Shown here in pieces: positions 26,244 to 51,300 of a DNA stretch of 51,369 bases. The notes beneath the pieces were generated by a model. The model was given only the letters and a program-made list of their open reading frames with translations, was not told the origin of the DNA and made no database searches. Position 1 is the first letter of the stretch. Each line of letters begins with the position of its first letter. A program made the translations under genes and the position numbers. Origin of the DNA: Marinilabilia salmonicolor JCM 21150 (GTDB taxonomy: Bacteria > Bacteroidota > Bacteroidia > Bacteroidales > Marinilabiliaceae); assembly GCF_000259075.1 (NCBI RefSeq), contig NZ_AJKI01000051.1, forward strand, positions 1 through 51,369. The letters run 5' to 3'.

Positions 26244-27086
26244 TTAGACCTGACCCAATTCATTTTTCACAACTCCCTGGAACAGCAAACTCATCTTCAC
26301 CCAGTTGCTTACTCTTATCCGACGTCGCATGATGGCTTTGGGAGGAGTTCTTTTTATTTTTCGAAAAAGTTTAAGATAATAGATATAAGCGATGTAAACT
26401 CCTAACCTGGCGCTCTTATTAAGTTTCACAATACCCTGATAGGCCTCCCGGAAATCGGTTTCTATCTCCAACTCAATCTTTGCCTTTTGGACTGCAGAAA
26501 AATTCAGCAGATCCACATTCGGAAAATAACTCCGTCCTCGCTCCTCCAGGTCGGATTGAACATCCCTTAGAAAATTGACCTTCTGAAATGCTTCCCCCAA
26601 TTTCCGTGCAGGATGTTTCAATGTATCGTAGCCCTTCGGGTCGCCTTTATAGAAAACTCTGAGACACATCAACCCAACCACCTCTGCAGAACCATAGACG
26701 TAGCTCTCAAACTTTTTACGGTCATAAATTTTATGATCCAGATCCATGGCCATACTTTCAAAAAAAGCTTCAATCAACTCATGGTCGATGGAATACTCAT
26801 TTACCACCAGCTGAAAACTCTGCAATATGGGATTGGTAGAGATCCCCTCATCAATAGAGAGATAAGTCTCTTTTCTGAAGCGTTCCAACAGCACCGATTT
26901 ATCATGTTCATGAAAAGTATCAACAATTTCGTCGGCAAACCGCACAAATCCATAGATGGCATAAACTGCCCTGCGAATTTCGGGAGCAAGCAATCTTATT
27001 CCCAGTGAAAAGCTGGTGCTGTATTTCCGGGTTGTATGCCGGCTACATGCCAGTGCATTTTGGTTGTATAATTCGATACTGTTCAT
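26244..27086 (-). CDS. crtB: Phytoene synthase
   Basis: A 280-residue squalene/phytoene synthase. The two aspartate-rich motifs that bind magnesium-diphosphate are visible: Asp-Glu-Ile-Val-Asp (about 54-58) and Asp-Val-Gln-Ser-Asp (about 172-176), the latter within Asn-Phe-Leu-Arg-Asp. It condenses two geranylgeranyl diphosphates to 15-cis-phytoene, the first committed step of C40 carotenoids. I start at the ATG complementary to 27084-27086; a longer frame adds four residues. It follows the desaturase gene by 35 bp on the same strand, so the pair forms an operon. Squalene synthase is less likely given the neighbours. Confidence 0.92.
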   Translation of the reverse strand: MNSIELYNQNALACSRHTTRKYSTSFSLGIRLLAPEIRRAVYAIYGFVRFADEIVDTFHEHDKSVLLERFRKETYLSIDEGISTNPILQSFQLVVNEYSIDHELIEAFFESMAMDLDHKIYDRKKFESYVYGSAEVVGLMCLRVFYKGDPKGYDTLKHPARKLGEAFQKVNFLRDVQSDLEERGRSYFPNVDLLNFSAVQKAKIELEIETDFREAYQGIVKLNKSARLGVYIAYIYYLKLFRKIKRTPPKAIMRRRIRVSNWVKMSLLFQGVVKNELGQV

Positions 27087-27121
27087 CACAAAAATCATTA
27101 AATTAAAACCCTTAACCTACA

Positions 27122-28585
27122 TTAAACCTCCATTTGCTCCACCGTCAGCTTTGAGCCAATCACCACCATCGGCAATCCGGTACCCGGAACTGTGGAAGCC
27201 CCGGTATAAAACAAATTCTTCAACTTCTCATCCTTATTCGAAGGGCGCAGGTAAGCCATCTGTCCCATATTATGACCAAGTCCCAGACCACTTCCACGAT
27301 GCAGATTAAACATCCTTTCCCATTCCACAGGAGTATAAATTGTTTGAGAAACCCTGTTTTCAATCAAATCAAAACCCACTCTTTCAGATAAATCTTTCAG
27401 GATGCCCTCTGTAATTTCATTTTTATCCGACCAGTCGGGTCGAAAACGTAAATCAGGCACCGGAACCAGAATGAAAAGCGATTCACATCCCTCCGGCGCA
27501 CTTTCCGGATTGTGCCGGGACAGCACATTTACATAGTAATAAGGTTTTTGAAGCGAAACCTGATTCTTAAATATGCCGTTGGCATAATCCCTGAAATTGG
27601 TGCCCAAAAAATAGTTGTGGTGATGAATGTGAGGAATTTTCCCTTTCACGCCGAGATAAATGGTAAAGGGAGCCATGGTCCATCGCATCTCATCAAGCTT
27701 CTCCATACGAAACGACCTGCGATTCAGAACAGCCCCTCTGAACCAGGCGGCATCAGCATTGATTACATACTGATCAGCTTCCCATCTTCTGCCTTGCTGG
27801 TCAATCAGTGCCTTAACCTGATTTTTTGTCTGCTCCACCCCAACGATTTCCGTATCATAATGTATTTCCACTCCTCTCCTTTTCAGCTCATCAACCAAAC
27901 CTTCAACAATCTTGTACATCCCTCCACGCACATTATAGTAGCCATCGTGCTTCAACTCAGTATAGGATAAAAGAGTGAAAACAGCAGGCGTATCAAAAGG
28001 TGTACCTCCAAGAAAAAAAGCTACCAGTGACAGTATTTCCTTGACCTCACGAGATTCAAAGTGCCGTTCCACCTCACTCCAGAAAGTACGAATTAATTTT
28101 GGCGCATGCCTGATGGGAACCTGAACCAAAGCCTGAAGATATTCCCACCAGTGATCAAAATTTCTGCGGATAATGAGATTCTCTGTATCATGAAACAAAG
28201 CACCTGTAGTTTGCAGATAACGATTTAACTTTTTCTCCAGATCCGGTTCTATACCCTTAAACTCTTCAGCAAGTTTGTGTACATCCTTATATATTCTGAA
28301 AGTCTTACCTGTATCGCTAAAATTTACCGCATAAAGCGGATCCAACTCATGGAATTCGAAAGGTAACTCCCAGTCACAGGAACGTGCAAGTTCATGAAAT
28401 TCATAGCTCATACTAAAAAACGATGGCCCCATATCAAAGGTAAAACCATCTTTGGTGAGCCTGTTGAGGCGGCCACCGGCCTGATGAAATTTCTCCACCA
28501 TTACCACTTTTTGCCCTTTACTGGTCAATCGAAGAGCTGTTGACAATCCGCCAAGACCGGTTCCTGCTATTAAAACTTTGCCCAT
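27122..28585 (-). CDS. crtI: Phytoene desaturase (CrtI-type)
   Basis: A 487-residue FAD-dependent desaturase. The dinucleotide-binding start is Gly-Thr-Gly-Leu-Gly-Gly (about 8-13), then Gly-Gly-Arg-Leu-Asn (about 37-41) and Phe-Asp-Met-Gly-Pro-Ser (about 50-55). The C-terminus has Gly-Ala-Ser-Thr-Val-Pro-Gly-Thr-Gly-Leu-Pro, diagnostic of CrtI proteins. It converts phytoene to lycopene. It is first of the crtI-crtB operon. The second desaturase at 28958 is divergent and looks like the 3,4-desaturase, so this one is assigned CrtI; the assignment within the family is inference. Confidence 0.88.
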   Translation of the reverse strand: MGKVLIAGTGLGGLSTALRLTSKGQKVVMVEKFHQAGGRLNRLTKDGFTFDMGPSFFSMSYEFHELARSCDWELPFEFHELDPLYAVNFSDTGKTFRIYKDVHKLAEEFKGIEPDLEKKLNRYLQTTGALFHDTENLIIRRNFDHWWEYLQALVQVPIRHAPKLIRTFWSEVERHFESREVKEILSLVAFFLGGTPFDTPAVFTLLSYTELKHDGYYNVRGGMYKIVEGLVDELKRRGVEIHYDTEIVGVEQTKNQVKALIDQQGRRWEADQYVINADAAWFRGAVLNRRSFRMEKLDEMRWTMAPFTIYLGVKGKIPHIHHHNYFLGTNFRDYANGIFKNQVSLQKPYYYVNVLSRHNPESAPEGCESLFILVPVPDLRFRPDWSDKNEITEGILKDLSERVGFDLIENRVSQTIYTPVEWERMFNLHRGSGLGLGHNMGQMAYLRPSNKDEKLKNLFYTGASTVPGTGLPMVVIGSKLTVEQMEV

Positions 28586-28616
28586 TTATTTATCTATTTC
28601 TTTTTCAATTTCACTC

Positions 28617-28650
28617 AATTTTCTGTTAATTTCAACTTCGACAGAAAATT
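28617..28650. promoter_or_regulatory. Perfect 10-bp inverted repeat upstream of crtI
   Basis: AATTTTCTGT (28617-28626) and ACAGAAAATT (28641-28650) pair perfectly around 14 bases. It lies 32 bp upstream of the crtI start and just beyond the end of the small frame at 28660. It could be an operator for crtIB or a terminator for the small frame. Confidence 0.4.
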
Positions 28651-28659
28651 ATCCACATT

Positions 28660-28848
28660 TTATAAATGCTTATCGTCTTTACACAACATCCAAGGATTTG
28701 TAAACCTCATGCCCTTAACCTTTTTTTCAATAAATTTATCCGGAAAGTCATGAGTTAACATAAGTCGGTTAAAGAAATATGCTTTCCCTGACATAAGGGA
28801 ATCCTGATATTTATCCAGATCATTTTCTAACATACGTTTAACAATCAT
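28660..28848 (-). CDS. Possible small protein in carotenoid divergon
   Basis: A 62-residue frame between the divergent carotenoid operons, with natural-looking mixed composition and no membrane segment. It might be a small regulator, a truncated gene or a chance frame; no family is recognised. A perfect inverted repeat follows its stop. Listed as tentative because the 372-bp gap it occupies would otherwise be empty. Confidence 0.3.
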   Translation of the reverse strand: MIVKRMLENDLDKYQDSLMSGKAYFFNRLMLTHDFPDKFIEKKVKGMRFTNPWMLCKDDKHL

Positions 28849-28957
28849 TCAAATAAAGGAAACACAAAAAGTACAAATCACCTTTTAAAAAAATTAGTTT
28901 AAAGGAAAATAAATATACTTTTTAAACACACACCATGATTATTTTGTTTATTTTTAA

Positions 28958-30439
28958 ATGAAAAAAATGAAACAAAAAAAGTGCATCATTATAGGAGCCG
29001 GAATTGGCGGGCTTGCAACTTCAGTGAGATTGGCAGCTCTAGGCTATGAAGTACTAGTTTTGGAAAAAAACAGACTCCCCGGAGGAAAGATGCAACAAAT
29101 AGAAAGAGATGGTTTTCGCTTCGACACAGGGCCTTCGCTCTTTACGCTCCCCCATCTGGTCACAGATCTTTTGGCTCTGGGATCAACACCTTCTGATCTG
29201 ACCTTTAAATTTAATAAACTTAAAAATGTATGCCGATATTTTTATGACGACGGAACCATCATCAATGTGCCGGAAAAACCCGAAGATTTTGCCAGGGAAA
29301 TAGAAATTAAAACGGGTGAACCGGCAGCAAACATCCTAAACTACTTAAAAACAGCAAATGACCGGTATCAGTCATCAGCTGATTTGTTCATTTTCAACCC
29401 TCTGAAAAACATAATCTCCTCGGTTCGAAATAAAAAGCCGAAAGAACTGAAGCCAATGTTGAAGGTAAAACCTTTGCGAACCATGCACAAGGAGAATCAA
29501 ATTTCATTTCGCAGCCCACAGGTAATCCAGATTTTTGACAGATATGCCACTTACAACGGTTCTTCGCCTTACAAAGCATCCAGTATGCTGAATATGATTT
29601 CGCATCTGGAGCACAATGAAGGCGCATTCTTCCCGGAAAAAGGGATGTACAGCATCGTTGAAGCTATCTTTCACAAAGCCCTTTCTCTGGGCGTTAAATT
29701 TCAATTTGACACCGTTGTCAACAATTTGATTTCTGAAAAAAACCGCATCACGAAAGTAATTACCGGGAATGACGAATTGAATGCCGATGTGGTGGTTTCA
29801 GATATGGATGTGAACATGCTTTACCGGGGACCGGCAAAAAAGCTAAAAATGCCCGGATCAGTCAAAAAGCCGGATCTTTCGTCTTCTGCCATCATTTTTT
29901 ACTGGGGAATGAAACAATCCTTTCCACAATTAGATGTTCACAACATCCTTTTCTCCGGCGATTATCAGCGTGAATTCCAGTCCATTTTCAAAGATCATCA
30001 ACTTTCCAACGACCCTACGGTTTATATCTTTATCAGTTCCAAAATAGTGAAAGCAGACGCTCCGGAAGGAAAAGAGAACTGGTTTGTAATGATCAATGTG
30101 CCTCCGGGTACAGAGAAAGTAAATCAAAAATGGATTGATCAGGCCCGGGAGAATATTTTTAAAAAAATTCATCGTACATTGAAAATCAATCCACGGGAAA
30201 AGATTCTTTGCGAAGAAATTGCTACCTCAAAAACCATTGAGCGCAACACCGGATCCTGGAAAGGAGCCCTGTACGGGAACAATTCCAACTCTATCTGGTC
30301 GGCTTTTTTGAGGCATCAAAACAAATCAGGAAAATACAACAACCTGTTTTTTACTGGCGGAAGCGTTCATCCCGGAGGAGGCATTCCTCTTTGTCTGGCC
30401 TCAGCAGCAATTGTGGGAAAAGAAATAGAACAATTATGA
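28958..30439 (+). CDS. crtD: Carotenoid 3,4-desaturase (CrtD-like)
   Basis: A 493-residue FAD desaturase paralogous to CrtI. The nucleotide-binding motif is Gly-Ala-Gly-Ile-Gly-Gly (about 13-18), followed by Gly-Gly-Lys-Met (about 42-45) and Phe-Asp-Thr-Gly-Pro-Ser-Leu-Phe-Thr (about 54-62); the C-terminus carries Gly-Gly-Ser-Val-His-Pro-Gly-Gly-Gly-Ile-Pro. The Asp-Thr-Gly-Pro-Ser-Leu-Phe-Thr stretch is typical of Bacteroidota CrtD (1-hydroxycarotenoid 3,4-desaturase). Its stop overlaps the next ATG as ATGA, so it is coupled to the hydratase, matching the expected order hydration then desaturation. A start at 28967 is also possible. Confidence 0.85.
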   Translation: MKKMKQKKCIIIGAGIGGLATSVRLAALGYEVLVLEKNRLPGGKMQQIERDGFRFDTGPSLFTLPHLVTDLLALGSTPSDLTFKFNKLKNVCRYFYDDGTIINVPEKPEDFAREIEIKTGEPAANILNYLKTANDRYQSSADLFIFNPLKNIISSVRNKKPKELKPMLKVKPLRTMHKENQISFRSPQVIQIFDRYATYNGSSPYKASSMLNMISHLEHNEGAFFPEKGMYSIVEAIFHKALSLGVKFQFDTVVNNLISEKNRITKVITGNDELNADVVVSDMDVNMLYRGPAKKLKMPGSVKKPDLSSSAIIFYWGMKQSFPQLDVHNILFSGDYQREFQSIFKDHQLSNDPTVYIFISSKIVKADAPEGKENWFVMINVPPGTEKVNQKWIDQARENIFKKIHRTLKINPREKILCEEIATSKTIERNTGSWKGALYGNNSNSIWSAFLRHQNKSGKYNNLFFTGGSVHPGGGIPLCLASAAIVGKEIEQL

Positions 30440-31098
30440 CAGAAAAATTAAGACAATTAACCCGGAAGCACCTCACTCCTGAGAGGATCAACCGGTTCTG
30501 GCTCATTTATTACACGGTGGGCGTCATTGGTTTTGCGCAACCGGTTAGCCGCGAGCTGTTCCAAAACCTAACAGGGCTATCCATCCTGATGTCCACTGCC
30601 ATCATGTTGTACTTCCACCGCCCCTGGAATGTAGCTTTTATCGGAGCATTAACATTTGTACTTCTGGGAGGCATTTTCATTGAAGCTGTGGGAGTAAACA
30701 CAGGTATCGTTTTCGGTGAATATCAATACGGGGCTACTTTGGGACCAAAAATTGCAGGCACTCCCCTGCTCATCGGCATCAACTGGGTAATGCTGATCTA
30801 TATTGTCTGGCAGATAGTACAAAAAATTAACATCAGGGGAGCCGGTCAACTCCTGATTGGTGCTACCCTGCTGGTGGGCTACGATTTGTTTTTGGAACCC
30901 ATTGCCATGAGCACCGATATGTGGAATTGGGCAGGACAACAGGTGCCACACCAGAATTATATAGCATGGTTTATTATCTCCCTTGTGTTTCTGAGTATAT
31001 TTAAAATGGCAAAAATCAACTATCAAAACCCCGTTGCTCCGGGGTTGTTGGCGGCCCAGGCAGGGTTTTTCTTTTTACTGAACCTGCTGAACATCTGA
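30436..31098 (+). CDS. cruF: Carotenoid hydratase (CruF-like)
   Basis: A 220-residue inner-membrane protein with six to seven hydrophobic segments. It matches the carotenoid biosynthesis protein family (CruF, DUF422), including Gly-Val-Asn-Thr-Gly-x-x-Phe-Gly-x-Tyr-x-Tyr (about 88-100) and Gly-Ile-Asn-Trp (about 114-117). CruF adds water to the 1,2 double bond of lycopene- or gamma-carotene-type ends. It is coupled to crtD by the ATGA overlap at 30436 and followed by an acyltransferase and a glycosyltransferase. Confidence 0.85.
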   Translation: MTEKLRQLTRKHLTPERINRFWLIYYTVGVIGFAQPVSRELFQNLTGLSILMSTAIMLYFHRPWNVAFIGALTFVLLGGIFIEAVGVNTGIVFGEYQYGATLGPKIAGTPLLIGINWVMLIYIVWQIVQKINIRGAGQLLIGATLLVGYDLFLEPIAMSTDMWNWAGQQVPHQNYIAWFIISLVFLSIFKMAKINYQNPVAPGLLAAQAGFFFLLNLLNI

Positions 31099-31126
31099 TT
31101 TACCGAATAAAACAAATCTTTTTTTT

Positions 31127-31747
31127 ATGATAAAAGCATCACATAAACCTCTATTAGTCTGGTTTTTTAAAGTATTTACAAAAATAATCATCCACTCCAA
31201 ATTTCATAAAATCTTCATAGAGGGGGACACTTCTCCTACAACATCTTCCATGTTGGTCATCAACAACCATTTCTCATGGTGGGATGGCTTTTTTATCCAC
31301 TACCTAAACAATAAGCTTTGGAAAAAACGTTTTCATGTAATGATGCTTGAGGAAGAACTGGAAAAACGAAAATTTCTATCAAAAGGAGGTGCCTTTTCCA
31401 TACGAAGAAATCATTCCACCACCGCAACATCTCTGATATATGCCAAAAACATCCTTAAAAACGATGCACAAAATTTACTGCTGATGTATCCGCAGGGAAA
31501 ACTCCAATCAATGGCCAGCCGCTACCTGCGTTTTGAGCCCGGAGTACAGCATCTGGTGGATAAAACAAAAGTACCGGTAAAAATGGTTGTATCTCTGGTG
31601 GATTTCTTTGAAAAGCCGCGGCCATCGGTCTGGCTTTACCTCAAAGATTTGTATTATGACCCTGAATCAGAGCAAACCATCGAACAAAGCTTTAACTTGT
31701 TCATGGATGAATGCATTGAACATCACAATCAAGACACCGACCTTTAG
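31127..31747 (+). CDS. PlsC-family acyltransferase
   Basis: A 206-residue acyltransferase of the lysophospholipid (PlsC) family. The catalytic HX4D motif is His-Phe-Ser-Trp-Trp-Asp (about 46-51), and Pro-Gln-Gly-Lys-Leu-Gln (about 122-127) matches the second conserved block. There is one hydrophobic N-terminal patch and no signal peptide. Its position in the carotenoid operon, next to a glycosyltransferase, suggests that it acylates a carotenoid glycoside, like CruD in green sulfur bacteria. That role is inference; a general lipid role is the alternative. Confidence 0.8.
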   Translation: MIKASHKPLLVWFFKVFTKIIIHSKFHKIFIEGDTSPTTSSMLVINNHFSWWDGFFIHYLNNKLWKKRFHVMMLEEELEKRKFLSKGGAFSIRRNHSTTATSLIYAKNILKNDAQNLLLMYPQGKLQSMASRYLRFEPGVQHLVDKTKVPVKMVVSLVDFFEKPRPSVWLYLKDLYYDPESEQTIEQSFNLFMDECIEHHNQDTDL

Positions 31748-31877
31748 CATAAAACGAGCATAACAACGATTACCACAACAAGAACACCCACAAATATCTG
31801 AATATAACCCCCATCCGACATATAAAAAAAATAAATATTATACGGGTAAAACAACACAAAAAACACCCCAAACAAGA

Positions 31878-32975
31878 ATGGATTTTCTCACCACAACTGC
31901 CTTCATTGCTCTGACAATCATCTCCATCAGGTGGATGACTGCCTTACTGAATCTCCTGACCGGAATCCCACGCTTCATACCTTTCCAGAAGAAGACAAAT
32001 GAGATTTCCATTTTAATACCTGCAAGAAATGAAGCCAAAAATCTTCCTACACTTTTAAAGGGGCTTACTCAATGTGACAGCTCCGTGGGAGAAATCATCG
32101 TCTATAATGATCAATCGGAGGATGACACCGCAGCCGTTATAAAGAAATGGTCACAACACGATCCGAGAATCAGATTAATAGAAGGGATGGAAGTGCCCCC
32201 CGGATGGAAAGGAAAAAACCACGCCTGTTATCACCTGGCAAAAAAAGCCGGCGGTCGTTATTTGTTGTTTTTAGATGCTGATGTAACGGTGAGTCAGGAA
32301 GCCATAGACCTTGCTTTTTCCAGTCTCAGGAGTGATCAGTTAACCCTTTTCTCCTTTTTCCCCCGTCAGGAGATGAAGACACAGGGAGAATGGCTGTTGG
32401 TTGCCCAGGTAAACATCATACTCCTTTCGCTTCTGCCACTAAGTGTGTCCAGTTTTATCCCATGGTCCCTTATGACAGCCGCCAATGGTCAGTTTATGCT
32501 TTTCGATGGCGACGCCTACCGGAAATATCAATTTCATAAAATCATGAAAGCCCGGGCTGTGGAAGATATTGCCATTGCACAGTACATCAAGAAGAAAAAA
32601 TTGAAAGTCAGAACGGTTCCCGGTCCGGAAGGGGTTAAATGCCGGATGTATCACAATTACCGGGAGGCATTGATGGGCCTTGCCCGAAGTGCCCGGTTCT
32701 TTTTTGGAGGCAGCATTGTGGCAGGATGGTTGTATACATTTTTTTCATCGCTGGGATGGTTGCCGGTAGTAGTGACCCTGTCCACCACATGGATTTTGTT
32801 TTACTTCCTGTTATTAATTTCCATGCGTATTTTTGTAAGCCAGGTCAGTGGTCAATCCGCCATTAAGAATCTTTTGCTGATGCCTTTGCAACAAGCAGCG
32901 CTGATTCATCTTTTTTATACTGCCACCAAACAATTGATTTTAAAGAAAACCACATGGAAAGGACGAAGTATATAG
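31878..32975 (+). CDS. GT2 glycosyltransferase (CruC/CrtQ-like)
   Basis: A 365-residue membrane-anchored glycosyltransferase 2. An N-terminal helix (1-25) precedes the GT-A domain with Tyr-Asn-Asp-Gln-Ser-x-Asp-Asp-Thr (about 76-84), the DxD motif Leu-Asp-Ala-Asp-Val (about 132-136) and an acceptor Val-Glu-Asp (about 230) with Ala-x-Tyr. Two to three C-terminal helices follow (about 280-345). GT2 proteins of this shape glycosylate hydroxylated carotenoids (CruC/CrtQ type). It is 130 bp after the acyltransferase and is the last clear gene of the carotenoid operon. Confidence 0.82.
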   Translation: MDFLTTTAFIALTIISIRWMTALLNLLTGIPRFIPFQKKTNEISILIPARNEAKNLPTLLKGLTQCDSSVGEIIVYNDQSEDDTAAVIKKWSQHDPRIRLIEGMEVPPGWKGKNHACYHLAKKAGGRYLLFLDADVTVSQEAIDLAFSSLRSDQLTLFSFFPRQEMKTQGEWLLVAQVNIILLSLLPLSVSSFIPWSLMTAANGQFMLFDGDAYRKYQFHKIMKARAVEDIAIAQYIKKKKLKVRTVPGPEGVKCRMYHNYREALMGLARSARFFFGGSIVAGWLYTFFSSLGWLPVVVTLSTTWILFYFLLLISMRIFVSQVSGQSAIKNLLLMPLQQAALIHLFYTATKQLILKKTTWKGRSI

Positions 32976-33001
32976 CAGTCCTCCAAAAAGCGAGGCTTTT
33001 T

Positions 33002-33190
33002 GCTTTTAAAGGAATACACAATATTGTTAAGTTTTTAAAAGGCCAACGGTCTTTAAGCAACAGTCTGGGGCAAAACCCCAGGAAAATTGTAATAAAGAGA
33101 GGGGGCGTGGAGGATACCCTAAGCCCCGGGGCGTTGCCCTGGACTATTGTTTTCAGGCCTTCAGCCGGTTTACACTTTACCAGTTTTATG
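33002..33190 (+). repeat. REP-like intergenic repeat, copy C
   Basis: Copy of the 8282-8522 family: 33003-33060 matches 8283-8340, and CTATTGTTTTCAGGCCTTCA (33143-33162) matches 8463-8482. It lacks the large central hairpin. It lies exactly in the apparent N-terminal part of a longer open frame from 32954, so that extension is not protein. Confidence 0.7.
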
Positions 33191-33943
33191 TATAAGTTAG
33201 TGTTACTGATTATTATTTTTTCAGGCCAACTGAGTCAAACGACTCAGGGACAAAGCCACGATGAGCTCTTTTTTGAGTGTTATACCACCACCAATATGGA
33301 GCCGTGGAAGATAGAAATGGAAAACATGGCAGCACAAAAAGAACCAGGAAATTACCACCAGCTGTTTGAAGTGGTGCTGGCCTGGTATGGCTACATTGGC
33401 TATTGCCTGGGCAATGACAAGGAAGATGAAGCCGAACAATACCTCGAAACCGGATGGGAATACCTGGATGAGCTAATTGAAATGGAGCCATCCAACGCTG
33501 CGCCCCATGCGCTCAAAAGCGGTTTTTACGGATTTGAGATGGCTCTGGCACGTTACAAAGCCCTTATTCTGGGCCCCAGAAGTGTCTCCACTCTAAAAAC
33601 AGCAGCCTCTATCGACAGTACCAACATTCATTATCTGATAGAGAAAGGCAACCAGATGTACTATATGCCCACAATGCTGGGGGGAGATAAAGAGATAGCC
33701 CTGCACCATTACAAACATGCAATAGAACTCATGGAATCGGGCGAAAGGTATCATCAGGGACACTGGTTCTACCTCAATACCCTGGTTACCCTCGGATATT
33801 CCTACCAATCGACGGAGCATATACAGGAAGCACGTATTATTTATCAAAAGATCCAGCGCATAGCGCCCACTTTCAAATGGTTTAACGAAGAGGTGTGGCC
33901 CCGTTTTATAAAGAAATACGGAGCAGGAATTAAACTGGATTAA
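33188..33943 (+). CDS. Exported TPR-like protein
   Basis: A 251-residue protein with a signal peptide (residues 1-22, Met-Tyr-Lys-Leu-Val-Leu-Leu-Ile-Ile-Ile-Phe) and TPR-like helical repeats. Examples are Glu-Ala-Glu-Gln-Tyr-Leu-Glu-Thr-Gly (about 80-88) and Ala-Arg-Ile-Ile-Tyr-Gln-Lys-Ile (about 219-226). The frame is open back to 32954, but the first 78 residues of that version are encoded by the REP-like repeat, so I start at the ATG at 33188. It resembles the TRAP-T / TatT-type periplasmic TPR proteins only loosely. It follows the carotenoid operon; a functional link is unproved. Confidence 0.72.
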   Translation: MYKLVLLIIIFSGQLSQTTQGQSHDELFFECYTTTNMEPWKIEMENMAAQKEPGNYHQLFEVVLAWYGYIGYCLGNDKEDEAEQYLETGWEYLDELIEMEPSNAAPHALKSGFYGFEMALARYKALILGPRSVSTLKTAASIDSTNIHYLIEKGNQMYYMPTMLGGDKEIALHHYKHAIELMESGERYHQGHWFYLNTLVTLGYSYQSTEHIQEARIIYQKIQRIAPTFKWFNEEVWPRFIKKYGAGIKLD

Positions 33944-46453: not shown

Positions 46454-46467
46454 ACCATCCCTTCGCT
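46454..46467 (+). repeat. 14-bp direct repeat, left copy
   Basis: ACCATCCCTTCGCT appears here and again at 51143-51156. The two copies flank the restriction-modification and retron genes. The bases after each copy are also loosely alike (CACAT and TTTGGCA words). Confidence 0.5.
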
Positions 46468-46546
46468 GCCAAACACATGCTTTTTTTGGCAACGCACTCG
46501 CTTCGTTGATAAGAAAGTGGTAAATTGTGAGACTTTTTAAATTGAT

Positions 46547-49351
46547 ATGATTACAAAAGAAGAAGCATATAAGAAAATACAGGAATTAGTTACCCGATTT
46601 GGAGAACAAATTGATTCTTACAAACAGACTGATTATAATGAGACCTTGACAAGGCGAGATTTTATTGACCCTTTATTCAAAGCATTAGGTTGGGACGTTG
46701 ATAATTCACAGGGATATGCAGAAGCATACAGAGAAGTAATTCACGAAGACAGGGTTAAAGTTGGCAAAGCAACCAAAGCCCCTGATTATTCATTTAGGTT
46801 AGGTGGAGGCAAAAGATTATTTTTTGTTGAGGCTAAAAAACCAAGTATTTCAATAAAAGATGATATTACAGTTGCTTATCAAATCCGTCGTTATGGTTGG
46901 AGTGCAAAGCTTCCAATTAGTATAATTACTGACTTTGAAGAATTTGCTGTATATGATTGTACAAAGAAACCAAATCCTACAGACAAATCAGGAGTTGCAC
47001 GGATTAAATACATAAACTTTAAAGATTATCTGACAGAGTTCGAATATTTGTGGGATACTTTCTCAAAAGAGCATGTTTTAAAAGGTAGTTTTGACAAGTA
47101 CATACAGAGCGATACTGTTAAAAAAGGCACGGCAACAGTTGATAAAGAATTTCTTTCATCATTGGATAATTGGCGAACATATCTTGCAACAACAATCAGC
47201 CTGAGAAATAAAGAACTTGACGAAGACGAAATAAACTATGCCGTACAACTTACAATTGATAGATTAATATTTTTAAGAATTGCCGAAGACAGAGGTGTTG
47301 AGCAATATGGACAGCTGAAAAATTCTGTAAATCAAAAAGGAGAATCCTATCAGAACTTATTTTTTAATTTCAAGAAAGCGGACGAAAAGTATAATTCTGG
47401 ATTATTTGATTTTTCAAAGGATGTAATTTCAGAAAAACTACTAATTGATAATAAAGTTATAAAAACGATTGTCAATGAAATGTATTACCCTGAAAGCCCT
47501 TATGAATTTTCGGTTATCTCAGTAGAAATTCTTGGGAGTGCATACGAACAATTTCTTGGGAAAGTAATTCGTATAACTCCAGCCCATCACGCCAAAATTG
47601 AAGAAAAACCCGAAGTACGGAAAGCTGGCGGAGTTTATTATACTCCGCAATATGTTGTTGATTACATTGTAAAAAATACCATTGGTAAACTGATAGACGG
47701 AAAAACACCAAAACAAATAGAAAAAATTAAAATTGCTGACCCTGCCTGCGGCAGTGGCAGTTTTTTAATTGGTGCTTATCAGTATTTATTGGACTATCAT
47801 AAAAACTACTATACAGAGAACGGAACCAAAACAGGTAAAAAGGATAGCCCAACAACTCCCGAAGGAAATTTAACATCGGCTGAGAAAAAGAAAATATTGC
47901 TTAATAATATTTACGGCGTTGATATTGACCTTAATGCAGTTGAAGTAACCAAATTGAGTCTGTTGCTCAAATGCATGGAAGGCGAAACAGAAACGAGTAT
48001 TGCCCAGCAACAAAAGCTTTGGCATGAAAGGATTTTGCCAACACTTGATGAGAATATAAAAAGTGGTAATAGTCTTGTTGAAACTGATTTTTATGATGCT
48101 GTACTCGATTTTGGTGAAGAAAAAAAGATAAAACCTTTCAATTGGCAAAAGGCATTTCCCGATGTTTTTATAAATGGTGGTTTCGATGTAATAATTGGTA
48201 ATCCACCTTATGTTATGTTACAAAACCTTGAAACAAGAGAAGTTTTTGATTATGCTTTAAATAAATATATCTCAGCAAAATATAAAATTGACACTTACCA
48301 ATTATTCACAGAACGTTCAATAAAGTTATTGAAGCAAAATGGACTTTTGGGCTTTATTACTCCAAATACCTTTTTAAAAAATATTCATTCTGAACCATTA
48401 CGAAAATACGTTTTAGAAAATACGCTAATAAAAGAGTTTTTGCTATTTAACTATTCGGTTTTTTCATCCGCTAGCGTTGATACTTGTGTATTTATTTTTG
48501 AAAAAGCTGAAGCAAAAAAGAATAGCCATTTTGATGTTTTAAAATCGGATATTGAATTTGTTGTTGAAAAAATATCAGATATTCACCAGAATTCACTTTT
48601 TGAAAACAATAGGTTAGATTTCAATTTACTTACGTCTGACATAGACAATAAACTACTTTCAAAAATTGTAAAGAATTCAATGCCATTATCTACATATTGC
48701 GGTGCTTATTTTGGTATTCAAACTTTTGATAGAAAAACTTATGTGAGCAAAGAAAAAGTAAACAAGAATTATGAACCTGTTATAGATGGCGGAAATATTG
48801 AACCTTATTATTTAAAGACGCATAGTGAATACGTAAACTACTTACCAGAAGCAATCAAAAGTGGTGGTAATGAATCTATTTATCGACAAGACAGGATATG
48901 TATAAGGCAAATCGGAACTTATCCAATTTCAACTTTTGTTAAAGCAAATATTTTTACATTAAATACCATTTATAACGTTTATCTTAAACAAGATAACATT
49001 GCGAATCTTAAGTTTCTACTAGGGATAATAAATTCAAATGTTACAAAGTACTTTTGGAAGAAAACAAATTCAGATGAGAAAAAGACTTTTCCAAAAATAA
49101 AGAAAGAAGCTATTTTATCAATACCAATTCCAGCAATTAAAGATACATCAAAAGCATTGCATGATAATATATGCAATCTTGTAGACCAATTATTACAGCT
49201 AAATGAGGAAGCACATTCCGTTAAACTTGAAACAAAAAGACAATCGATAGAAAACAAAATTGATTATTGTAATGAAAAAATTAACTCAATTACTTATCAA
49301 CTATTTGATTTAAAAGAGGATGGAATAAGCATTGTTGAAAATGTTGAATAA
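46547..49351 (+). CDS. Type IIG restriction-modification enzyme (Eco57I-like)
   Basis: A 934-residue single-chain restriction enzyme and adenine methyltransferase. The N-terminal nuclease site is PD-(D/E)xK-like, with Asp80 and Glu95-Ala-Lys97. The methyltransferase motif I is Asp-Pro-Ala-Cys-Gly-Ser-Gly-Ser-Phe-Leu (about 398-407) and motif IV is Asn-Pro-Pro-Tyr (about 551-554), giving N6-adenine specificity. A target-recognition region fills the C-terminal 300 residues. It would cut unmodified invading DNA while protecting its own site. It is the first gene of integron cassette 3; a separate specificity subunit is not needed. Confidence 0.9.
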   Translation: MITKEEAYKKIQELVTRFGEQIDSYKQTDYNETLTRRDFIDPLFKALGWDVDNSQGYAEAYREVIHEDRVKVGKATKAPDYSFRLGGGKRLFFVEAKKPSISIKDDITVAYQIRRYGWSAKLPISIITDFEEFAVYDCTKKPNPTDKSGVARIKYINFKDYLTEFEYLWDTFSKEHVLKGSFDKYIQSDTVKKGTATVDKEFLSSLDNWRTYLATTISLRNKELDEDEINYAVQLTIDRLIFLRIAEDRGVEQYGQLKNSVNQKGESYQNLFFNFKKADEKYNSGLFDFSKDVISEKLLIDNKVIKTIVNEMYYPESPYEFSVISVEILGSAYEQFLGKVIRITPAHHAKIEEKPEVRKAGGVYYTPQYVVDYIVKNTIGKLIDGKTPKQIEKIKIADPACGSGSFLIGAYQYLLDYHKNYYTENGTKTGKKDSPTTPEGNLTSAEKKKILLNNIYGVDIDLNAVEVTKLSLLLKCMEGETETSIAQQQKLWHERILPTLDENIKSGNSLVETDFYDAVLDFGEEKKIKPFNWQKAFPDVFINGGFDVIIGNPPYVMLQNLETREVFDYALNKYISAKYKIDTYQLFTERSIKLLKQNGLLGFITPNTFLKNIHSEPLRKYVLENTLIKEFLLFNYSVFSSASVDTCVFIFEKAEAKKNSHFDVLKSDIEFVVEKISDIHQNSLFENNRLDFNLLTSDIDNKLLSKIVKNSMPLSTYCGAYFGIQTFDRKTYVSKEKVNKNYEPVIDGGNIEPYYLKTHSEYVNYLPEAIKSGGNESIYRQDRICIRQIGTYPISTFVKANIFTLNTIYNVYLKQDNIANLKFLLGIINSNVTKYFWKKTNSDEKKTFPKIKKEAILSIPIPAIKDTSKALHDNICNLVDQLLQLNEEAHSVKLETKRQSIENKIDYCNEKINSITYQLFDLKEDGISIVENVE

Positions 49352-49401
49352 TTGTTAATAAAAAGAATGTATAAATATTTTAACTGTCAGTTATATTTTA
49401 T

Positions 49402-49409
49402 TATATTTG
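49402..49409 (+). promoter_or_regulatory. Bacteroidota -7 promoter box
   Basis: TATATTTG fits the TAnnTTTG -7 box of Bacteroidota. It lies 51 bp after the stop of the type IIG gene and just before the structured non-coding region, placing the likely transcript start near 49415. A clear TTTG -33 element is not seen. Confidence 0.55.
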
Positions 49410-49414
49410 CATCA

Positions 49415-49733
49415 TAGTTCTTTGAAATTGCTTTGGTAAAAAGCTGTAATGTAACTCACGTAGTAAAGTGTATTTAGTTACACAACCTATATAGGTTCTA
49501 TTGGGGAGAACAGTTGTTTTGTAGTATGTATGTTAGTCTGCTAATCGGTCAACACTACTCAATCCAATTATTATCAACTCAATAACTGCTATTTAATATA
49601 AGAATAATTATTAATAGTTTCTTTTGGCAGGAATATTTAGGGGTGAAAATTTGAACAACGCATATGAGTTAAGTTACAGGCATATTGTAAAATTGGCAGG
49701 GCGATATTGCCCTGTAATTAAACTTTATAACAT
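49415..49733 (+). ncRNA. Candidate retron msr-msd RNA
   Basis: A 320-bp non-coding stretch after a promoter box and before the retron genes. It holds several stem-loops: TGTAACT / AGTTACA (49450-49482), the palindrome AACCTATATAGGTT (49484-49497), a nested CAGTT...AACTG structure (49511-49588) with inner GTAGT/ACTAC, a CTATT/AATAG hairpin (about 49589-49617) and a long final hairpin that runs into the next start codon. Position, promoter and folding fit a retron msr-msd template, but a clear a1/a2 pair and branching G were not established, so this is a candidate. Confidence 0.45.
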
Positions 49734-49738
49734 ATGCG
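49659..49738 (+). promoter_or_regulatory. Long hairpin covering the next start codon
   Basis: CGCATATG (49659-49666) pairs with CATATGCG (49731-49738). Inside, TTACAGG pairs with CCTGTAA and CAGGGC pairs with GCCCTG (loop GATATT). The ATG at 49734 lies within the 3' arm. It could control translation or be the msd stem of the retron RNA. Confidence 0.6.
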
Positions 49739-49979
49739 TAAATTAAATTTTTACCAAAACGTTGATAGCTTGGTACAAGGTATTGATGCTATCGTTTCGA
49801 AGAACCGTTGTTCTTTCTCAGATGATGAATTGCAACTATTACAGGAATGTAAAATTGCATTATTGAAATTCAAAAAGGCAGAAAAAGGGTTAAAGCCTGA
49901 CCTTAACATTTTGGTTAAAGTCGTAAATCTTTTATCCCGTATATTTTTCACCTTAAACAATTTCGATGACATATTCTAA
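49734..49979 (+). CDS. Small helical protein, retron accessory candidate
   Basis: An 81-residue soluble protein, predicted mostly helical, with Ser-Asp-Asp-Glu-Leu-Gln-Leu-Leu-Gln-Glu-Cys (about 29-39) and Leu-Leu-Lys-Phe-Lys-Lys-Ala (about 44-50). Its start codon is inside a long hairpin. It is 36 bp before the XRE gene. It is not recognised; it might be an adaptor or toxin partner. The composition looks natural, so I keep it as a gene. Confidence 0.65.
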   Translation: MRKLNFYQNVDSLVQGIDAIVSKNRCSFSDDELQLLQECKIALLKFKKAEKGLKPDLNILVKVVNLLSRIFFTLNNFDDIF

Positions 49980-50015
49980 ATCTGACACCCCTAATTTTTT
50001 CAAAAACTGACGGTT

Positions 50016-50324
50016 ATGAATTTAGGTCTTACAATAAAGAATGTTAGAAAGCAGAAGGGTTTTAAGCAAAACAAATTTGCTGAATTGTGTAATATAACTC
50101 AGTCTTATCTTTCTCAAATAGAGAATAATGCTAAAGACCCAAATCTTTCAATTTTGAAAATTATTTCTGAAAAATTAGAAACCCCATTACCAGTTTTGTT
50201 TTTTCTATCAATGGAAAATAGTGATGTTCCAGAGAAAAAACAACAAGCTTTTAGTATGATTGCACCTTCAATAAAATCACTTGTTAATGAATTTTTTGTA
50301 AATACTGAACTTGTTAATGATTAA
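50016..50324 (+). CDS. XRE-family helix-turn-helix protein in retron operon
   Basis: A 102-residue protein with an XRE helix-turn-helix at about 5-60 (Lys-Gln-Asn-Lys-Phe-Ala-Glu-Leu-Cys-Asn-Ile-Thr-Gln-Ser-Tyr-Leu-Ser-Gln-Ile-Glu), followed by a short helical tail. The stop (50322-50324) overlaps the start of the reverse transcriptase (50317), so the two are translationally coupled. HTH proteins occur as accessory genes in some retron types; here it may be a repressor, an antitoxin or the effector. Confidence 0.85.
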   Translation: MNLGLTIKNVRKQKGFKQNKFAELCNITQSYLSQIENNAKDPNLSILKIISEKLETPLPVLFFLSMENSDVPEKKQQAFSMIAPSIKSLVNEFFVNTELVND

Positions 50325-51132
50325 TACTTTAAAACATCTTGCATTTATTCTTAAAGTAAATCTCAGTGAGATTGAAAGTATTATTCAGAATATTGATAAG
50401 TATTATACGGAACGTGTAATTACAAAAGAAGGTAAAAACGGAAAAACAAAGTCAAGGACTATTAATCCGAGCCATAACAGATTAAAAGTCATTCAAAAAC
50501 GAATTCAAAAAAATATACTTTTAAACGTTCGCTTACCTGATTATGCCTATGGTGCAGTGAAAGGACGAGATAATGTTGATAACACTAATGTTCATAAAGG
50601 CAAGAAATACAAGTTTACAACAGATTTACGTAATTTTTTTCCTTCAATTAGCCACCATCATGTTTTTAAGATGTTTCGCTTGAATGATTTTTCTCCAGAA
50701 GTTTCAAGGGTTTTAACACAATTGACAACTTATAAAGGAAAACTTCCGCAAGGTTCTCCTACATCATCAACCATCGCAAATTTAGTTTTTGTACAGACTG
50801 GTAACAATTTGAGTTTATTTGCAAAGCAATATAACATTACTTTCACATCTTTTGTTGATGATTTAACCTTTTCATCACCTGTAGATTTTAAGGAAAAATC
50901 AAATATGATTATTGAAATGGTTACAAAAGATGGATTTAAAATAAGCCATAACAAAACAAATTATTCGAGAAATCCTATTGTAACTGGACTTATTCCAATG
51001 AATAATTATTTGCGTTTACCTGATTCATTTATGGATAAACTTAAGGATTCATCTGGAAAGACAAAGGAACAAATAAAGGGACTTTTACTTTATAAACAGA
51101 AGGTTGACAGAATAAATGGAAAAATCAAATAG
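50317..51132 (+). CDS. Retron-type reverse transcriptase
   Basis: A 271-residue compact reverse transcriptase. Retron marks are Asn-Thr-Asn-Val-His (89-93, the NAxxH-type motif), Asp-Leu-Arg-Asn-Phe-Phe-Pro-Ser-Ile (103-111), Leu-Pro-Gln-Gly-Ser-Pro-Thr-Ser (143-150), the catalytic box Phe-Val-Asp-Asp (179-182, most retrons have Tyr-Ala-Asp-Asp) and Val-Thr-Gly (222-224). It lacks maturase and endonuclease domains, so it is not a group II intron enzyme, and its LPQG box excludes diversity-generating elements. I use the ATG at 50317 over a TTG at 50311. It should make msDNA from the upstream RNA. Confidence 0.85.
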   Translation: MINTLKHLAFILKVNLSEIESIIQNIDKYYTERVITKEGKNGKTKSRTINPSHNRLKVIQKRIQKNILLNVRLPDYAYGAVKGRDNVDNTNVHKGKKYKFTTDLRNFFPSISHHHVFKMFRLNDFSPEVSRVLTQLTTYKGKLPQGSPTSSTIANLVFVQTGNNLSLFAKQYNITFTSFVDDLTFSSPVDFKEKSNMIIEMVTKDGFKISHNKTNYSRNPIVTGLIPMNNYLRLPDSFMDKLKDSSGKTKEQIKGLLLYKQKVDRINGKIK

Positions 51133-51142
51133 CCTTACACAC

Positions 51143-51156
51143 ACCATCCCTTCGCT
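51143..51156 (+). repeat. 14-bp direct repeat, right copy
   Basis: ACCATCCCTTCGCT, identical to 46454-46467. It lies 11 bp after the reverse transcriptase stop. The flanking bases (CACAT, TTTGGCA) also resemble those after the left copy. Confidence 0.5.
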
Positions 51157-51300
51157 CTCAGGCACATTTGGCATTCCCGCAAGGCTAGCCCTCAATCCAA
51201 AAATGCCAAAAGAGCCTTCAAGCCCGTCCCGCTCCAACGCACGGATCGTGAAACATTCCGATAAAATTGAGACAAATAGATTAAGAAATAATAACGGCCA

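Follow-up and report, generated by a model that had tools for sequence, protein, structure and literature searches.

A type VI retron of Marinilabilia salmonicolor with a candidate RNA switch over the start of its small-protein gene

An operon at positions 49415-51132 of a 51,369-nucleotide stretch of DNA from Marinilabilia salmonicolor JCM 21150 (contig NZ_AJKI01000051.1; the whole stretch is called the window) encodes a reverse transcriptase (RT), a DNA-binding protein of the XRE family and a small protein (SP) behind a non-coding stretch, and raises the questions of what kind of element it is and how production of the small protein is controlled. The initial annotation took it for a tripartite retron, made up of RNA, RT and effector, and for a possible undescribed retron subtype. 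Comparison with relatives indicates that the operon is almost certainly a type VI retron and, with a little better than even confidence, favours a reading in which SP is the effector and its translation is controlled by RNA and perhaps by multicopy single-stranded DNA (msDNA). Sequence comparison supports family membership, the msr hairpin, a pairing between retron arms a1 and a2, a second pairing of a2 with an a1-like arm (a1') and a direct repeat (R1/R2). The locus itself is of a known type, and the parts of most value appear to be two features common to relatives, the switch proposed for the leader and the concerted direct repeat.

Three open reading frames (ORFs) make up the coding part of the operon:

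49734-49979, forward strand: SP ORF, a small helical protein of 81 residues and the proposed effector (PADLOC SP_VI, 5.5e-19).
50016-50324, forward strand: helix-turn-helix (HTH) ORF, an XRE-family DNA-binding protein of 102 residues and the proposed autoregulator of the operon (PADLOC HTH_VI, 1.5e-29).
50317-51132, forward strand: retron RT of 271 residues, with its ATG at 50317 and its stop at 51132 (PADLOC RT_VI, 1.6e-77).

The RT was matched best by RT_VI at 258.6 bits, 74 bits ahead of the runner-up RT_III-A (184.2 bits, 8.4e-55), and the top listed ranks were all retron models. All three components of a type VI retron were present and, because each of the three proteins matched its own PADLOC type VI model, the locus was assigned to type VI; the same matches to RT_VI, HTH_VI and SP_VI ruled out the undescribed subtype, and no difference from other type VI retrons was noted that would justify a new one. 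Type VI retrons, after Mestre et al., combine an RT gene with genes for a DNA-binding protein and a small protein (PMC8541194). Pfam placed HTH_3 (5.1e-14) in the XRE protein and RVT_1 in the RT. The NTNVH, LPQGSP, FVDD and VTG marks listed in the initial annotation were all located in the RT, and the 8-bp overlap between the XRE and RT genes was found in its place, as read directly from the sequence and the ORF list. Two oddities claimed for the enzyme disappeared on comparison: its length is normal against the 279 positions of the RT_VI profile and the 255-289 residues of own-phylum RTs (counted from the match start and excluding L057, at 202 residues, where the contig end cuts the RT), and FVDD is one form of the F/Y-V/I-DD catalytic box of nearly all own-phylum RTs compared. 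The 81-residue ORF was likewise borne out, while its helical nature stood only as far as an AlphaFold2 model of three helices at low confidence (pLDDT 67.4, pTM 0.49).

Could the enzyme be something other than a retron RT, that is, a defence-associated (DRT), abortive-infection (Abi), diversity-generating retroelement (DGR), CRISPR-linked or group II intron RT beside an unrelated leader? Weak NCBIfam matches to Drt2 (3.7e-7) and to group II maturase (1.1e-5) point that way, far under their cut-offs (29.7 of 390 and 24.7 of 300 bits; Drt4 reached 21.1 of 450), and the best NCBIfam match was retron St85 (1.9e-41), itself below the family cut-off. The RT_VI margin, with a further retron model in second place, makes this alternative extremely improbable, as do the covarying msr hairpin and the complementary a1 and a2 arms described below. 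The same holds for the 13 distinct PDB sequences that matched the RT at E<=0.001, of which 10 carry a retron name and 3 are listed simply as RNA-directed DNA polymerase; the best were Retron-Kva2 (5.7e-24) and Ec86 (2.1e-23), and the named retrons also include Ec67, Ec78 and Ec83. The RTs of Ec86, which we take to be a type II-A retron, and of Kva2 are thus homologous to that of the window, whereas their effectors differ from those of the window locus; to our knowledge, no SP-type leader is known for either. Rfam searches of the window and leader, strict and permissive, returned no retron family and nothing at gathering score. Kva2 is described as a type IX retron (PMC13405049).

Relatives were gathered from several samples. 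A search of genome contigs gave six RT loci, of which L002-L005 are full-length and L006 and L007 (27-28% over 79 residues) were not read. RT relatives were present in 13 of 395 genomes of the phylum sample at 1e-30 and in 10 of 393 of the order sample at 1e-40 (the window's own included in both), and in 7 of 395 of another-order sample at 1e-35. In the class sample, 38 of 395 genomes matched RT_VI at 1e-45, and 16 loci were read; ten of these (L071-L076, L080, L083, L087 and L089), which have longer RTs, were set aside for lack of an SP-HTH or SP-RT arrangement before the RT. A plasmid search gave 32 records and a phage search 43 at 1e-5, six being fetched from each; no RT relative appeared in phage records at 1e-25, and no close relative in viral contigs by peptide patterns. 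The main set was made up of 36 distinct loci of the window's own phylum, taken to be Bacteroidota from the named relatives, in each of which an SP-like ORF precedes the RT; ORFs and SP starts were assigned by eye. Duplicates were L061 (repeats L051) and L050 (repeats L003), L058 being a near copy of L051; L093, L097 and L098 were fetched and not used. The distant L020 was kept out of the permutation tests and the operator count and left in the a2-shuffle accessibility test. L096 is better placed in type V (RT_V 283.7 against RT_VI 224.6) and is not among the 36 loci, although it entered the permutation tests with n=5 and n=36, the RT tree and the first accessibility count. The genome of the window itself (4.98 Mb, 72 contigs) gave no RT match at E<=0.001 besides the window RT.

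Retron RNAs follow a general plan in which the non-coding RNA is flanked by the arms a1 and a2, and the following parts were assigned upstream of the coding region:

49402-49409, forward strand: promoter box TAnnTTTG (-7), TATATTTG, from the sequence; we take this to be the Bacteroidota promoter consensus.
About 49415-49733, forward strand: non-coding RNA with msr, msd and the SP-gene leader, both ends being putative.
49416-49427, forward strand: AGTTCTTTGAAA, conserved where the transcript is presumed to begin, from alignments; presumably boxA-like.
49445-49458, forward strand: a1 arm TGTAATGTAACTCA, from a1:a2 complementarity.
49468-49483, forward strand: msr hairpin 1, GTGTA/TACAC with loop TTTAGT, from covariation.
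49484-49497, forward strand: msr hairpin 2, AACC/GGTT, from an alignment by eye.
49665-49678, forward strand: a2 arm TGAGTTAAGTTACA, used by both alternative pairings, from permutation, with pairs checked base by base.

The msr-msd RNA and the SP, HTH and RT genes would share one transcript. In relatives, msr hairpin 1 appears as GCGAA/TTCGC, CCGA/TCGG or GCCAA/TTGGC around a TTAAGT-like loop. It was paired in 65 of 65 cells across 13 distinct rows, with both sides changed in 3 of 5 pairs; no shuffle out of 500 equalled it in pairing percentage or in covariation score, and the bare count of changed pairs was reached by 274 of 500. The rows were picked by loop type, L040, L051, L054, L065 and the L041-type group being excluded. 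Together with the leader fold given below, this covariation upholds the earlier description of a structured non-coding stretch behind a TAnnTTTG box. Alignment of the whole non-coding RNA with MAFFT and RNAalifold failed, the msd being too variable for a single alignment. RNA duplex energies compared with mononucleotide shuffles proved uninformative in this AU-rich sequence, and complementarity was therefore judged by permutation, in which the score within loci is compared with that across loci. By this measure, complementarity of a1 with a2 averaged 25.5 within and 19.6 across loci, a difference reached in none of 20,000 permutations (n=31).

A second partner for a2 lies immediately before the SP gene, in a leader with the following parts:

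49713-49729, forward strand: a1' arm TGTAATTAAACTTTATA, resembling a1 and placed immediately ahead of the SP start, from a2:a1' complementarity.
49658-49666, forward strand: 5' half of a 9-bp stem, ACGCATATG, pairing with 49731-49739.
49731-49739, forward strand: 3' half of the same 9-bp stem, CATATGCGT, in which the SP ATG (49734-49736) lies, from the fold.
49697-49714, forward strand: small leader hairpin CAGGGC-GATATT-GCCCTG, noted by eye in 27 leaders; the minimum-energy model of the window pairs this segment differently, inside a long a2:a1' stem.

Complementarity of a2 with a1' averaged 24.9 within and 19.0 across loci (0 of 20,000 permutations, n=31), and in nine loci fetched after the pattern had been noted, five of which are also among the 31, 12 of 50,000 permutations reached the observed score. 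Four of five complementarity controls were flat (9601, 18829, 19717 and 18730 of 20,000). The a2 stretches used in the two pairings overlap by at least 6 nucleotides in 25 of 31 loci, so that a1:a2 and a2:a1' are mostly mutually exclusive. The window leader (49656-49742) folded at -29 kcal/mol with a z score of -4.98, none of 200 shuffles being equally good, and z was -2 or lower in six of eight leaders folded. For the full window RNA, the a2:a1' state was the minimum at -83.3 kcal/mol and the a1:a2 state lay 5.2 higher at -78.1; the unpaired fraction over 49714-49745 rose from 0.32 to 0.51 in the latter. In 24 of 36 loci, the SP start was predicted to be less accessible with the real a2 than with dinucleotide shuffles of it (p 0.0016, Wilcoxon); this test replaced an earlier Wilcoxon test without a shuffle control.

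The same region also contains a direct repeat, one copy of which lies in the msd part and the other in the leader:

49624-49631, forward strand: R1 TTGGCAGG, which probably forms the 3' side of an msd hairpin, from the repeat and an upstream complement.
49693-49700, forward strand: R2 TTGGCAGG, between a2 and a1', from the repeat.

The two copies have the same sequence within a locus and differ between loci (e.g., TGTAACAGG, TATGGACACGG, AGGAGCAGGG, TTGAGCACGG and AGGCGGGC). Similarity of R1 to R2 within loci was reached in none of 20,000 permutations of 26 discovery loci, in 147 of 20,000 for the next five loci, in 2119 of 50,000 for the final four taken by themselves and in 3 of 50,000 when these nine were pooled, and four direct-repeat controls were flat (2482, 14063, 8062 and 4692 of 20,000). 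In the msd part, R1 has a locus-specific complement on its upstream side (0 of 20,000, n=28; L053, L049 and L059 were left out, their R1/R2 call being unreliable), and R2 matched it as well (40 of 20,000). These complements speak for an explanation that involves no pairing of DNA with the leader, namely that R1, R2 and a1' are kept for double binding of the RT (or SP) or that the repeats compete for one upstream RNA partner. The match of R2 to that partner is the weaker one, however, and follows from the identity of R1 and R2, and a regulatory role is favoured by where R2 lies, within the hairpin over the start codon; the explanation is conceivable and somewhat doubtful.

The identity of the effector was approached through the occurrence of the two accessory genes. 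An HTH gene stood between the SP and RT genes in 29 of 36 distinct own-phylum loci and was absent from the other seven (L002, L038, L044, L046, L051, L052 and L054), which kept SP and the non-coding RNA and whose RTs were all matched best by RT_VI. When five HTH queries were compared with these seven loci by tblastn, the only match was one of 33 residues (E 0.009, L038), while both controls matched. On the RT tree, absence of the HTH gene amounted to six changes, at least four of them on starred branches (L096 counted), and the sister of the window RT was that of the HTH-less L002 (74% identical; support 94/83, just below a star). Among the 36 loci, the presence of an SP-like ORF is partly a matter of selection, since the ten longer-RT loci without such an ORF had been set aside. 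In the 25 distinct own-phylum loci brought in by RT query from the phylum, order and another-order samples, an SP-like ORF was found, by eye, in every one. Because 7 of 36 loci lack the HTH gene, SP is the better candidate, and it is probably the effector, acting as a small growth-inhibiting helical peptide. Small proteins of HTH-less loci are mostly more cationic, and the frame in L054 is interrupted early, through assembly error or decay. The retron operon first proposed holds for the RT, the accessory proteins and the msr-msd-like RNA; HTH is not an obligatory partner.

The reverse assignment, in which SP is accessory and the system depends on HTH as effector or antitoxin partner, draws on the frequency of the HTH gene in the own phylum and on its presence in L091, L092, L094, L095 and L101-L104, which are phage and E. 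coli loci. It is made improbable by the seven type VI-RT loci without HTH, which fall on several branches of the RT tree and include the close L002, and by the position of a candidate HTH operator at the operon's own promoter:

49380-49394, forward strand: TTAACT-N3-AGTTAT, a candidate operator that precedes the -7 box; the consensus in the family is TTAACTNNNAGTTAA.

The palindrome TTAACTNNNAGTTAA lies about 34-44 nucleotides before a TTCTTTG element in many HTH-bearing loci. Among HTH-bearing loci, 18 of 24, or 18 of 25 if L020 is counted, had an operator score of at least 9 of 12, as opposed to 1 of 7 HTH-less loci (Fisher p 0.007), and 11-18% of shuffled segments also reached that score; among later loci, L105 and L108 scored 9, L107 fell below and L106 was not scored. 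These results are consistent with HTH being a transcriptional autoregulator that acts on the promoter palindrome, for which the chances appear even. Binding of HTH to the leader palindrome was rejected because the hairpin occurs in HTH-less loci too. HTH_VI was also tried as a search handle and proved unspecific, with matches in 7 of 14 control genomes. HTH_VI-like proteins were noted in L017 and L018 (2.7e-23 and 4.6e-23), with no RT relative in the DNA examined there.

With SP as the probable effector, the leader pairings and the repeat can be put together in the following scheme. The leader hairpin would normally hold SP translation down, a2 folding back on a1' and hiding the SP start codon, and the retron fold would pair a2 with a1 instead and open the leader, this being the putative direction of the switch. 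R1 would be reverse transcribed into msDNA. Since R1 and R2 are identical, msd-derived DNA that covers R1 is also complementary to R2 in the leader hairpin; such anti-R1 DNA would reach R2 and disturb the hairpin. SP would be toxic, and a phage would provide the trigger. That msDNA acts as an antisense switch on the SP message is put forward tentatively, at somewhat less than even confidence, on the strength of the repeat and its position. The wider proposal that type VI retrons regulate effector translation by a nucleic-acid switch, with a2 as toggle and anti-R1 DNA pairing with R2, is possible to about the same degree. If the scheme is true, the amount of SP would tell the cell directly whether msDNA is present, lost or made in excess, and silencing by protein-protein contact would be unneeded.

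Retrons are described as complexes that sequester a toxic effector (PMC12548924), and this description, along with the HTH-RT gene overlap, which suggests matched amounts of the two proteins, would fit a classical tripartite retron in which an RT-msDNA complex binds and silences SP, or SP and HTH, after translation and in which the leader serves ordinary translational coupling. Such an arrangement leaves unexplained why a locus-specific arm complementary to a2 precedes the SP start and why a direct repeat is maintained within each locus, and is rather unlikely. If msDNA is instead an antisense switch on the effector message, retrons gain a second use of DNA besides protein sequestration. In the literature searched, as far as its text was available, no description was found of the role of the type VI SP and HTH proteins or of a link of msDNA to them, nor, in that on type VI retrons, of the a2/a1' switch or the R1/R2 repeat. 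A 2025 report, whose title is approximately 'Reverse transcribed ssDNA derepresses translation of a retron antiviral protein', is said to exist; it was absent among the literature matches listed, which scarcely cover preprints. If it shows what this title suggests, it concerns the same kind of mechanism and would support the present reading and lower its novelty. The elements named here by comparison (a1, a2, a1', R1, R2 and the operator) can be altered one by one.

Features of the a2/a1' switch and the R1/R2 repeat are not confined to the window locus and were noted in type VI relatives too. Phage type VI retrons (P2_2H1, ST147-VIM1phi7.1, vB_YenM_56.17, MuM16-1 and KS5) have the gene order SP-HTH-RT of the window, the small proteins of MuM16-1 and KS5 being identified by eye; the first four of these have an SP of 48-54 residues as opposed to 81 in the window, and phage type VI RTs have 310-318 residues as opposed to 271. 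The phage RTs of L091 and L094 were also assigned to RT_VI. A Shine-Dalgarno sequence can be recognised in the SP message of the phage and E. coli loci, and the leader hairpin covers it. One pair of the enterobacterial leader stem changes from A-U to G-C on both sides, and 58 of 60 cells were paired in 4 distinct rows; 64 of 500 shuffles were as high, the rows being too few for significance. P2_2H1 and three E. coli variants carry TGGAGCAG at both the R1 and the R2 places. A P2_2H1-like operon was matched in 99 of 5426 complete E. coli genomes, always on the chromosome and over at least 80% of the operon in 98, and these copies make the question testable in a laboratory strain. In L096 (Edwardsiella plasmid p2), with its type V-like RT, a 57-residue ORF before the RT, a possible ribosome-binding-site hairpin and a repeat GTCTGGCA were noted by eye; the leader scheme may extend to type V retrons.

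A number of results weigh against the scheme. The permutation tests take no account of relatedness among loci, and the control that compared a2 with the first 40 nucleotides of the SP gene, which adjoin a1', was not flat (182 of 20,000). Leader folds of L003 (z -0.8) and L095 (z -1.5) were not significant, and in L004 the SP start is covered by a partner other than a2. In the modelled a1:a2 state of the window, the SP ATG is still paired and only its surroundings open, and for the window alone 15% of a2 shuffles gave equal or lower accessibility of the SP start. The best repeat of L040, L049, L053 and L059 lies away from the usual R1/R2 places, and a common RNA partner upstream of R1, or a common protein site, could account for R1/R2. 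Among proteobacterial loci (n=5, L096 included), a2:a1' was not significant (6029 of 20,000) and R1/R2 was weak (1504 of 20,000); R2 of L091 is degenerate. Inspection by eye suggests no overlap between a1:a2 and the anti-Shine-Dalgarno segment in phage and E. coli loci, and a proteobacterial switch would therefore not act by simple exclusion. As regards the proteins, SP_VI matched only 2 of 6 small proteins scanned from HTH-less loci (3.5e-7 and 0.0066) and did not match the phage small protein of L091, and the association of operator and HTH, itself post hoc, did not reach significance on independent tree pairs.

Some further features were noted around the retron and its relatives. A type IIG restriction-modification gene (46547-49351; PADLOC 1.6e-209) lies directly upstream, the two perhaps forming a small defence island, and a 25-nucleotide imperfect repeat (84%; 46454-46478 and 51143-51167) brackets the restriction-modification and retron unit, possibly marking the boundary of a mobile or cassette unit. 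On a Riemerella anatipestifer plasmid (L060), a type VI-like retron is flanked on one side by an IS4351-type transposase next to floR and on the other by a recombinase gene, and tyrosine recombinase-like ORFs were seen by eye upstream of the retron RNA in L038, L057 and L066. The final 64 bases of the window contig (51306-51369) are identical to positions 10853-10916 of another contig of the same genome (C18). That copy adjoins or falls within a match, in L100, to the Rfam group II intron family RF00029 at E 3.2e-4, under the gathering score; the end of the window contig is probably a break within a group II intron copy. Farther upstream, at about 26244-33943, ORFs that resemble, by eye only, carotenoid biosynthesis genes and their neighbours were noted.

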